Shown piece after piece: positions 20,775 to 23,479 of a stretch of 33,709 nt of DNA. Below the pieces are notes generated by a model. That model saw nothing but the letters and a program-made list of their open reading frames with translations. It ran no database searches and was not told where the DNA came from. How positions within the stretch are numbered: the first letter of the stretch is position 1; the number at the start of each line of letters is the position of its first letter. The position numbers and the translations under genes were made by a program. Source of the stretch: Thomasclavelia cocleata (GTDB lineage: Bacteria; Bacillota_I; Bacilli_A; Erysipelotrichales; Coprobacillaceae); contig NZ_FOIN01000027.1 of NCBI RefSeq assembly GCF_900102365.1, positions 1-33,709 of the forward strand, in the 5' to 3' direction.

Positions 20775-20801
20775 ATCATATAATGGTTTAAGGTGATTAT
20801 A

Positions 20802-22439
20802 ATGGAATATAGATTAATAAGAGAAAATGAAATTGATACTGTAATCAAATTAATTGATAAAGTTGTTAAAGAATGCGTATGTTTGGATTTTGAGATTGAA
20901 AGAAAAAGTGATTTTTATTTAAATAAGTATAGTCTTACATATGTTTGTTTAGATGATAATAAAATTGTTGGGATGGTTAGTTTAACTAATGGAAATTATT
21001 TAAATTTATTATTTGTTGATAAAGAATATCGTAGAAGAGGAATTGGCAAAAAATTAGTAGAAATAATTGATAATCTTGTTTTAGAGGATTTAGAAGTAAA
21101 TGTTGGTGCTTATGCTAAATCATTTTTTGAACATATTGGTTTTAGTTTAAAGGTAGATTTTGAAAAAAAAGATACTTATTCAATGATAAAGAAAAGATAT
21201 GTTGAAAAAAAGTTTAGTAATTATGATGAGGTAGTTGAGTTTATTAATGGTCAAAAAGATCGTGTTTATAGTTTAGATAATTTTAGGAATTATATGGAGA
21301 ATTTAGGCAATCCACAGTTAATTCTTGATTGTGTTCATATTGGTGGAACTAATGGAAAAGGTTCAACTACTAATTATATTAAAGAAGTATTAAAACAAGC
21401 AGGATATAAAGTTGCAACTTTTACTTCACCAGCTTTGTATTCTAGGCTAGATATTATTAGAATCAATGATCAGTTTATTGATGAACAAACAATGGTAAAT
21501 TATGCTAATCGTTATGTTGATTTATGGCTTAAGTATGAAATATCGATGTTTGAAATTGAGGTATTTATTGCAATAATGTATTTTATTGAACAGAAAGTTG
21601 ATATAGCATTGTTTGAAGTAGGTTTAGGTGGTTTATTAGATGCAACAAATATTATTATGCCTAAATTAGCAATCAACACTAATATCGGTTTAGATCATGT
21701 ATATTATTTGGGTCATGATTATCAAAGTATTGCTTTGAATAAGGCAGGAATAGTTAAAGAAGGAATAGATTATTTAACTGGTGAAACAAAACCAGAATGT
21801 TTAGTAGTATTTGAAAAAGTATGCCAAGAGAAGCATAGTACATTATTAACTTTAGCACCAATTACAAATATTATTGATGGTAATAATGTTAGCTATCGTT
21901 ATCGTAATTATGATATTATTTTAGATACACCAGCATTATACCAAATATATAATAGTGCATTAGCTTTAGAAGCTTTGTTATACTTAAAAGAACATCAGAT
22001 TATTAATTTTAGTGATGATGATTTGTTACAGGGAATGTATAATGCTCGTTGGGCAGGACGCTTTGAAATAGTTAATATTGAGCCATTAATAATTATAGAT
22101 GGTGCTCATAATAAAGAGGGAATTGATGCTTTTTATGAATGTGCAAAAAAGTATGATAAGATAAAGATTATATTTAGCGCTTTACGTGATAAAGACTATA
22201 AACATATGATTGAAAAGTTATTATCATTAACTGATGATATCACAATTTGCGAATTTGAACATGTTCGGGCAAGTGATGCTAAAACACTTGCTGATGGTTT
22301 TAATGTTAAAATTGAACCTGATTATAAAGTGGCTATAGATGATGCTTTTAGTCATGATGGGACTGTTTTTGTTACAGGATCACTATATTTTATTTCTAAA
22401 GTTAGAGAATATATTGTAAAAAAATTGTCATGTGATTAA
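20802..22439 (+). CDS. folC: GNAT acetyltransferase - FolC (folylpolyglutamate/dihydrofolate synthase) fusion (545 aa)
   Basis: Residues 1 to about 130 form a GNAT N-acetyltransferase with acetyl-CoA motif LLFVDKEYRRRGIGKKLVEI (about 69-88). From about 138 on, a full FolC follows: start region SNYDEVVEFING, NLGNPQ, ATP-binding loop GGTNGKGSTT (P-loop 182-188), then VGLGGLLDATN, LDHVYYLGH, AGIVKEG and IIDGAHN. FolC adds glutamates to folates. ATG 20802 has AAGGTG upstream; a GTG nine bases earlier is less likely. No ribosome binding site precedes the internal ATG near 21184, so the fusion appears real. The following gene is a folate-type ECF S component. What the acetyltransferase modifies is unknown. 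Confidence 0.9.
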   Translation: MEYRLIRENEIDTVIKLIDKVVKECVCLDFEIERKSDFYLNKYSLTYVCLDDNKIVGMVSLTNGNYLNLLFVDKEYRRRGIGKKLVEIIDNLVLEDLEVNVGAYAKSFFEHIGFSLKVDFEKKDTYSMIKKRYVEKKFSNYDEVVEFINGQKDRVYSLDNFRNYMENLGNPQLILDCVHIGGTNGKGSTTNYIKEVLKQAGYKVATFTSPALYSRLDIIRINDQFIDEQTMVNYANRYVDLWLKYEISMFEIEVFIAIMYFIEQKVDIALFEVGLGGLLDATNIIMPKLAINTNIGLDHVYYLGHDYQSIALNKAGIVKEGIDYLTGETKPECLVVFEKVCQEKHSTLLTLAPITNIIDGNNVSYRYRNYDIILDTPALYQIYNSALALEALLYLKEHQIINFSDDDLLQGMYNARWAGRFEIVNIEPLIIIDGAHNKEGIDAFYECAKKYDKIKIIFSALRDKDYKHMIEKLLSLTDDITICEFEHVRASDAKTLADGFNVKIEPDYKVAIDDAFSHDGTVFVTGSLYFISKVREYIVKKLSCD

Positions 22440-22530
22440 ATATTTGAATTTTGTTATTTTTAGTTTATGATGATTATTTTTTATTGATGATGATAAAAAA
22501 TTACTTGAAGTAAGAAAAAAATTGTAGTAT

Positions 22531-22560
22531 TATACATATTGTATACATTTTGTATATAAT
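22531..22560 (+). promoter_or_regulatory. Tandem palindromic operator overlapping the -10 of folT
   Basis: Two overlapping copies of TATACA-N3-TGTATA occur at 22531-22545 and 22542-22556, an 11-bp period. The -10 hexamer TATAAT (22555-22560) overlaps the second copy. A dimeric regulator binding here would occlude the promoter. Its identity is unknown; no regulator gene is adjacent. Confidence 0.55.
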
Positions 22561-22598
22561 TTAGAAAAAGGGGGAGTCTACTTTTTAGTAGCAATCGC

Positions 22599-22667
22599 AT
22601 GTACGGTCGATGATCGGAATTAACGCCTGTGGACTAGAAATGAGGATGAAGCAGGAAAGATTGTAAA
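22599..22667 (+). pseudogene. TnpB-like (IS200/IS605 family) C-terminal remnant in the folT leader
   Basis: One frame reads SHVRSMIGINACGLEMRMKQ, then ERL and a stop. The NACG…MKQE pattern resembles the C-terminal tails of many IS1341-type TnpB proteins as I know them. Two in-frame stops precede it and no other part of tnpB is present. If right, this is the 3' scar of an old IS200/IS605-type insertion between the folT promoter and its start codon, and it would overlap the omega-RNA region of that element. A 9-base direct repeat (GTAGCAATC) brackets it, near 22589 and 22672. Confidence 0.45.
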
Positions 22668-22684
22668 TAAGTAGCAATCAGATT

Positions 22685-23479
22685 ATGATTCAAATTATTT
22701 GCGGATTTATTTTAGTTTTAATTGGAATATTGGTATTTTGGAAATTTCCAATTAAAAGTGACACTAAGTCACTTACATTAGCAGCCTTATTTATTGTATT
22801 GGCAGCAGTTTTAAAAAGGTTATCAATTATGATACCACTATTTGGATTTGAGAGTTTGAAAGTCTCAATTGAAGTTATTCCAATGTTGTTAGCTGGAATA
22901 TTGTTAGCACCAGGATACTGTTATATTATTGGTCTTGCAGTAGATTTAATTGGTTTACTCGTGACTCCGACAGGATTTCCGTTTTTAGGATTTACTTTGA
23001 GTGCAGTGTTGCAAACTTTAATTCCATCAATTGTAGTAACAGCTATAAAAGAAAGTTATGCTAATTATTTAGAAAAAGTTATCAAGGTCGCTTTGGTTTT
23101 ATTAGTAATTGGTGCGTGTAGTTATGTTTATAGTTTAGATCAGGTAACAATTTCAAAAAATATAGTTAATATTACACTTAGTCATAAGATTATTATTAGT
23201 ATAACCTGTATTGTAATGATAAGTATTTTATTTATTGTGATGTATTATTATAAAAGGAAATTAGATGAATCAGAGTATCATTTGTTTAATTTATGGATGA
23301 TTTCAGTAGTAATTGTTGAAATGTTAATTACTTTTTGTTTAACACCATATTGGTTACAAGTGATGTATGGAATACCTTTTACACTCTCTTTGTTTATTCG
23401 AGTGATTAAAGAGTGTATCATGATTCCAGTTGATATCATTTTAGGATATAATGTTTTAAGAATTATAAAAAAATTGTAG
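22685..23479 (+). CDS. folT: Folate-type ECF transporter S component, FolT-like (264 aa)
   Basis: A membrane protein with about seven hydrophobic segments. The conserved stretch YCYIIGLAVDLIGLLVTPTG followed by FPFLGFTLSAVLQTLIPSIV is the FolT-type S-component core. The S component binds folate and works with the shared EcfAA'T energy-coupling module encoded elsewhere. It follows FolC, making a folate uptake and retention pair. It is longer than typical FolT (about 170-180 aa), with an extra N-terminal helix and an extended middle. No good ribosome binding site precedes the ATG; the leader carries a TnpB-like scar, so the native start may have been altered. Specificity for folate rather than another vitamin is inferred from motif and context. 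Confidence 0.72.
   Translation: MIQIICGFILVLIGILVFWKFPIKSDTKSLTLAALFIVLAAVLKRLSIMIPLFGFESLKVSIEVIPMLLAGILLAPGYCYIIGLAVDLIGLLVTPTGFPFLGFTLSAVLQTLIPSIVVTAIKESYANYLEKVIKVALVLLVIGACSYVYSLDQVTISKNIVNITLSHKIIISITCIVMISILFIVMYYYKRKLDESEYHLFNLWMISVVIVEMLITFCLTPYWLQVMYGIPFTLSLFIRVIKECIMIPVDIILGYNVLRIIKKL

Follow-up and report, generated by a model that had tools for sequence, protein, structure and literature searches.

The stretch of Thomasclavelia cocleata DNA analysed here (the window, 33,709 nucleotides) carries on its forward strand folT (22685..23479), encoding the S component of a folate ECF transporter (TIGR04518, E 1.2e-65), and directly upstream of it folC (20793..22439; TIGR01499, E 8.9e-99), a gene order that is preserved in relatives. 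The folC frame has an N-terminal GNAT-like domain (matches 12-131) in front of FolC (161-540) and is thus a fused or run-together pair. The two genes are separated by a promoter-like site, a sequence resembling a Shine-Dalgarno (SD) site, GGGGGAG (22570-22576), and a 108-base leader (22577-22684) that ends at the ATG of folT.

The promoter region (22531..22560, forward strand) contains two overlapping TATACA-N3-TGTATA palindromes (22531-22545 and 22542-22556; two in the window versus 0.01 expected). As noted in a preliminary description of this DNA, they overlap the -10 element: the second palindrome runs into TATAAT (22555-22560) of the best forward-strand promoter-like site. Judging from this site, the folT transcript likely starts at about 22567, which would place the SD at the extreme 5' end of the mRNA. 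The leaders of genus-mates (L003-L011) also have TATACA/TGTATA palindromes at the promoter, with spacers differing by a few bases, which makes a fixed-geometry operator doubtful. In one relative (G062, contig 1, 2835356-2836155) folT is in two pieces with an in-frame TAG, and the leader is retained.

Fold of the leader RNA

A conserved structured RNA (22570-22687; all its elements are on the forward strand) extends from the SD to the AUG of folT. The distal SD (22570..22576), GGGGGAG here and GGAGGAG or AAAGGAG in relatives, is followed by the 5' strand of helix P0, CUACUU (22578..22583), which has its partner AAGUAG at 22669..22674 inside AAGUAGCA, and an alternative local partner, GUAG, at 22588-22591. 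Helix P1 is formed by GCAAUC (22591..22596) and GAUUGU (22659..22664). The core between the P1 strands (22597..22657; represented by covariance model R1, see below) consists of the P2 hairpin (22604-22608/22612-22616) with loop-E-like flanks, the conserved GGAAUUAACG, and a k-turn hairpin P3 (22626..22657), recognized both by its match to RAGATH-18 and in the core alignment, in which P3a (22626-22630/22651-22655), a tandem G.A element (22631-22633/22648-22650) and P3b (22634-22635/22643-22644) can be distinguished. The 9-bp direct repeat GTAGCAATC, previously noted as bracketing a TnpB-like tail, is indeed present at 22588-22596 and 22671-22679 (two copies versus 0.20 expected; 0/100 shuffles with two), but it does not resemble a target-site duplication, its first copy containing the 5' strand of P1 and its second the 3' strand of P0. 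At AUGUACGG (22599) begins a short open frame, MYGR*, which was considered weak; it is missing in relatives, several of which have GUGUACGG.

The core helices were analyzed on an alignment of 37 of the 47 core units, the ten omitted ones being identical to kept rows. P2 and P3 are 96.6% paired, and pairing falls to 27-53% when the partner strand is slid by 1-3 columns. Two-sided changes are found in 8 of the 12 pairs, compared with 1.8 in shuffled alignments (0/500 as high), and in 22 cells compared with 3.1; examples of compensated helices are CCUG/CAGG, CCCG/CGGG, CCCA/UGGG and CCUAG/CUAGG. These shuffle values, like all others and the Fisher test below, ignore kinship. Twenty-six core positions, among them most of the unpaired GGAAUUAACG, do not vary in any of the 37 units.

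The sequence of P1 differs by genus (GCAAUC/GAUUGU, AGCAAA/UUUGCU, UUCGAAUGU/ACAUUUGAA, CAAUUGU/ACGAUUG, UAGAAU/AUUCUA), and the closing arms of 16 genera form better duplexes with their own partners than in cross-pairs (-11.8 versus -8.4 kcal/mol; 0/20000 permutations as low), also when the P0 strands are removed (-7.5 versus -4.9 kcal/mol; 0/20000). P0 itself (CUAC/GUAG, with additional pairs in the second family of the order) is nearly invariant, and its support thus comes from conservation and not from covariation; in the Eggerthia-type leader L027 the CUAC/GUAG pairing is absent. The permutation of arms was made because, in the alignment of 25 single-core leaders (A2; the tandem ones, a few same-genus near-copies and L129, L146 and L147 of the second family were omitted), MAFFT puts the arms of three rows (L017, L023 and L027) in the wrong place. 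On this alignment, whose counts are poor for the three misplaced rows, P0 and P1 show little covariation, with two-sided change in one pair and 140/500 shuffles as high.

RNAalifold applied to the whole-leader alignment returns P2 and P3 only. Folded alone, the window leader prefers local hairpins, its energy being no better than that of shuffled sequences (z 0.23), and the predicted minimum-energy form is open. In 28/37 leaders, CUAC and GUAG can also form a local hairpin at the expense of P0; the other nine lack this hairpin. Six leaders have triple cores (L012, L013, L014, L058, L059 and L062) and form P0 and P1 once, at the outer ends; three tandem cores are kept in one genus (Faecalibacillus-type species). 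Taken over all leaders, sequence comparison shows the helices; that they close the gap between SD and AUG is suggested by the co-varying arms, against which stand the near-invariant P0 and the open predicted form.

A probable split ribosome-binding site and the distribution of the leader

According to the preliminary description, folT lacks a ribosome-binding site. There is indeed no SD beside the ATG at 22685, but a good one, GGGGGAG, is located at the opposite end of the leader. The same arrangement, an SD located 86-247 nt upstream of the AUG and no local SD, is observed in 37 of 38 leaders (local SD, 0/37). The starts of L025 and L026 had been taken 3 nt late and that of L017 up to 10 nt late, and rereading of the sequence still reveals no local SD. 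The exception is L075 (G096), which has lost both the distal SD and P0 and has an SD, AGGAAAGGA, beside its AUG; this natural rewiring is a potential experimental control. At leaderless folC-folT junctions of the second family, a local SD is found in 25/26 cases, for example AAAGGAG-ATTATTT-GTG (L226) and AAGGAG-TTAGT-ATG (L230). For the frames of the window itself, a local SD was scored in 27/28 by a lax rule that accepted any start within a frame's first quarter; this count is not relied on.

The loss of the local SD and the position of the leader are thereby established by comparison, and we infer from them that ribosome binding at folT is not absent but split, the RNA structure bridging the gap. 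In the window, closure of P0 would leave only U22577 and ten bases (22675-22684) between the SD and the AUG. Split sites have a precedent in T4 genes 38 and 25 (PMC3014915), where RNA structure between SD and AUG likewise shortens the functional spacing; the spacers there are 22-27 nt, compared with 86-247 nt of transposon-derived RNA in the folT leaders.

A DNA match to the leader is found upstream of folT in 33/98 relatives, including 9/9 of the genus, and the T. cocleata genome has one leader place only. Model R1, a covariance model built from 37 folT-leader cores, has matches in 59/315 genomes of the order. In 38 of these the context is folT (33/43 genomes of the same family and five of the second family), and in the remaining 21 the locus is not at folT. 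Of 23 non-folT loci read, most have a TnpB frame or remains of a TnpB-type RNA, and at least three fall within coding sequence by chance. In the phylum set, R1 matches were detected in 26/392 genomes; six of these genomes belong to other orders, and none of the loci read from them is at folT. Named genomes, scanned with a pattern, yielded 52 records, classified by eye as 30 folT leaders, among them those of Thomasclavelia, Massilimicrobiota, Faecalibacillus, Stoquefichus, Longibaculum, Eggerthia, Beduini, Dielma and Breznakia, and 22 other loci, in ten of which a simple test detects a TnpB Zn motif. On the FolT tree, built without the near-copies L005, L014 and L016, two changes of the leader label are needed; the tree is compatible with a single origin of the leader but does not show it. 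A term search of a limited set of papers retrieved no description of a guide-RNA leader at folT. A second TnpB-type omegaRNA-like remnant was seen in a genus-mate (L153, G004 contig 56, 1466-1537); the gene downstream of it, judged by eye to be alr-like, is equipped with a normal SD.

Relationship to IS607 guide RNAs

The window contains no Rfam match at gathering level. In a permissive scan of 22400-22750, RAGATH-18 matches 22626-22657 with 25.8 bits (E 0.0089), below its gathering score of 44.9; weak matches to snR57, hveRNA and rli52 in the same scan were taken as chance. Model R1, which had no reRNA in its training set, recovers 15/15 of the reRNA-type loci supplied, with E-values from 1.4e-6 to 3.8e-13 and a best score of 58.2 bits. 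By this test, the loop-E-like hairpin followed by a k-turn hairpin is a core shared between the folT leader and the RAGATH-18 RNAs or reRNAs of IS607 elements. In particular, the Aneurinibacillus reRNA (L179) and the leader have in common AUGUACGGU, CGGAAUUAACGCCUGUGGA and GAAGCAGGAA, and at the place of the 3' end AGUAGCAG of that reRNA the leader has AGUAGCAA. AGUAGCAG is the right end of IS607 reRNA scaffolds, and its counterpart in the window, AAGUAGCA, contains the 3' strand of P0.

According to PMC11061315, RAGATH-18 RNAs guide the TnpB nucleases of IS607 elements. With this guide RNA (RAGATH-18, RF03064; ISFba1 in PMC11061315), the leader shares AUGUAC-hairpin-GGAAUU(U/A)ACG, the k-turn hairpin CUGUGGA...GAAGCAG, the 3'-end GUAGCA and AGGAG on the 5' side. 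It differs in the apical part of the k-turn hairpin (5-6 positions versus 35-40 in the reRNAs in the R1 alignments), in the absence of the 3' stem loops, in the loss of GGCUA(C) from the P2 loop, in the lack of an adjoining TnpB and in its location in an mRNA leader. In ISFba1 (PMC11061315), a pseudoknot PK2 links the 5' hairpin loop with the 3' end; we read its strands as GGCUA(C) and GUAGC(A). A PK2 between a P2-loop GGCUA and the 3' UAGC(A) was not found in the leaders, whose P2 loops lack GGCUA, and by our reading the partner of GUAGC in the leader is now the CUAC adjoining the SD, that is, P0.

In the comparison of sequences, the leader core is homologous to the IS607-type TnpB guide RNA (reRNA or omegaRNA, RAGATH-18) and not to an RNA of the IS200/IS605 type. 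The preliminary description was correct in recognizing an old TnpB element and an omega-RNA-like fold, as the RAGATH-18 match and the recovery of reRNAs by R1 confirm, whereas the assignment to IS200/IS605 has to be changed to IS607, since the closest loci are RAGATH-18 reRNAs. The segment taken for a TnpB C-terminal tail does match TnpB loci, but the matched part (22626-22657) is guide RNA and not coding sequence. An IS200/IS605 right end with a TnpB coding tail was considered and rejected; in the IS607 loci L064, L066, L081, L082 and L092 the TnpB frame stops before the homologous RNA starts. No tnpB adjoins the leader, its flanks being folC and folT, and the T. cocleata genome has no PF07282 match. 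Among the 33 leader-bearing genomes of the family, no PF07282 TnpB was found in 23 and a TnpB-like Zn domain is still present in ten.

The position of the distal SD corresponds to that of the target motif (TAM) of IS607 insertions, AGGAG in 18/22 strains tested in PMC11061315. Because this motif is itself an SD sequence, IS607-type elements appear to land in ribosome-binding sites. Indeed, downstream of 15/20 right ends, a start codon (of a frame of at least 50 codons) occurs at a distance of 3-21 nt, compared with 16% for random positions of the same loci; counted were the 20 definable right ends (L064-L092, L179, L183, L201, L202 and L218). The gap between SD and AUG is therefore a frequent landing place of such elements, and folT is a case in point: there, the empty sites and the AGGAG motif together place the insertion between the SD and the AUG. 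That the native leader has been replaced, as had been supposed, agrees with these empty sites, in which the element's place is the native SD-AUG spacer.

An identity of 19 nt, AAGAAAGGAGAGTCTACTC, exists between the interior of tnpB in L080, L081, L085, L086 and L088, where it codes for KKGEST, and the end of folC and start of the folT leader in two genomes of the second family (L146 and L147). It exceeds the largest match in 1000 shuffles (15), and it hints at an internal deletion of the element; tnpB ancestry is only suggested, because other folT-leader loci have up to 18 nt in common with L146 and L147 and both stretches contain an SD.

Possible modes of folT control

The reading we favour, with fairly good confidence, is that the leader is what remains of an old IS607 insertion, exapted into a split-ribosome-binding-site leader in which P0 rejoins SD and AUG and which probably serves as a sensor for folT translation. 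In an ancestor within the order, in which two families carry the leader, an IS607-type element would have entered the AGGAG site, both SD and TAM, between folC and folT. Its genes would then have been lost and a trimmed guide-RNA scaffold retained, fixed in the folT mRNA with the SD on its 5' side and the AUG on its 3' side. With P0 and P1 formed, the structure would be closed at its ends and the SD would again stand about 11 nt away from the AUG, and the core (P2 and the k-turn hairpin P3, triple in one genus) would stabilise this form or sense something. The sensed signal would shift the RNA between the closed, translatable form and local hairpins that keep SD and AUG apart. Bridging, switching and sensing are inferred; the leader probably folds to join SD and AUG and to control folate uptake, and its deep conservation argues that it is used. 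As the target motif of the element is itself a ribosome-binding site, hardly more than one step is needed to derive a structured regulatory RNA from a mobile element.

To our knowledge, the exaptations of TnpB systems described so far retain the protein, and what folT seems to have retained is the guide RNA alone, in the role of a leader that controls the gene. IStrons, which combine an IS element with a group I intron, are similar in that a host gene survives the insertion at the RNA level; they splice themselves out, whereas the folT leader RNA stays and may bridge. The TldR RNA-guided repressors (PMC13418256), in which an exapted TnpB and its guide RNA control host genes, keep the protein and act in trans, in contrast to the folT leader, where the RNA acts alone and in cis. 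For a TldR-type TnpB-like protein, the search of the T. cocleata genome by the PF07282 Zn domain gave no match.

That the omegaRNA core is the aptamer of a riboswitch-like sensor of folate or a related metabolite is a serious possibility, although it falls somewhat short of being probable. Among the loci read, R1 matches occur only before folT or in TnpB-type or chance contexts; the repeated cores are reminiscent of tandem aptamers, and the core retains invariant unpaired bases. Local and long-range pairings are mutually exclusive in 28/37 leaders, but the alternative local hairpin is missing in the other nine. The THF-I riboswitch (RF01831) likewise forms a leader of a folT gene in this bacterial order; its covariance model has no match in the window, and it precedes a different, short FolT. 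THF-I and the folT leader never occur in the same genome (0/98; Fisher 4e-13, kinship ignored), which is weak support for a sensor, as the exclusion follows from the two FolT types: the FolT proteins found with THF-I form a clade of their own (support 100/99, five rows), and six of the 98 genomes (G038, G046, G053, G055, G078 and G088) have the long, folC-linked FolT with neither leader. Being confounded by FolT type and kinship, the exclusion is not leaned on. If the core does bind a ligand, common gut bacteria possess in this leader a candidate for a folate-related riboswitch. Tentatively, such a riboswitch, derived from a nuclease-free guide-RNA scaffold, might represent a new class of cis-acting sensors that, over distances of 86-247 nt, opens and closes a split site; in Faecalibacillus-type species its aptamers would be triplicated. 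The identity of the IS607 TAM (AGGAG) with the SD, through which elements land between SD and AUG, would have favoured this starting material.

If the core binds no ligand, the leader is an unusually long split ribosome-binding site. A constitutive site of this kind, in which the structured RNA only bridges SD and AUG, in the mode of T4 genes 38 and 25 (PMC3014915), would account for the missing local SD and for the closing arms. We regard it as possible and rather doubtful, since any stem would suffice for bridging, yet the 26 core positions, including most of the unpaired GGAAUUAACG, are invariant and one genus retains three tandem cores.

Control of folT through a protein bound to the core, either a k-turn binder of the L7Ae/YlxQ type or a TnpB acting in trans, appears unlikely. 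The k-turn geometry of RAGATH-18 is kept in the core, and RAGATH-18, which contains a k-turn, is bound by L7Ae in vitro through it (PMC8191799). A TnpB in trans might be available in the 10/33 family genomes with the TnpB-like Zn domain, but no PF07282 TnpB was found in the T. cocleata genome or in the other 23, and the reRNA parts required by the ISFba1 TnpB, the PK2 loop and the 3' stem loops, are missing from the leader.

A neutral scar or a non-autonomous mobile IS copy, which the IS607-like ends and the AGGAG insertion site would suit, is very improbable in view of family-wide conservation at one locus, covariation and a single leader place per genome apart from tandem cores. The preliminary description had proposed that the leader would be a riboswitch rather than a scar if distant relatives had it before folT as well and its structure covaried; such relatives do have it and its helices do covary, which excludes the neutral scar and leaves the transposon origin standing, and together with the TnpB homology this points to an exapted remnant.
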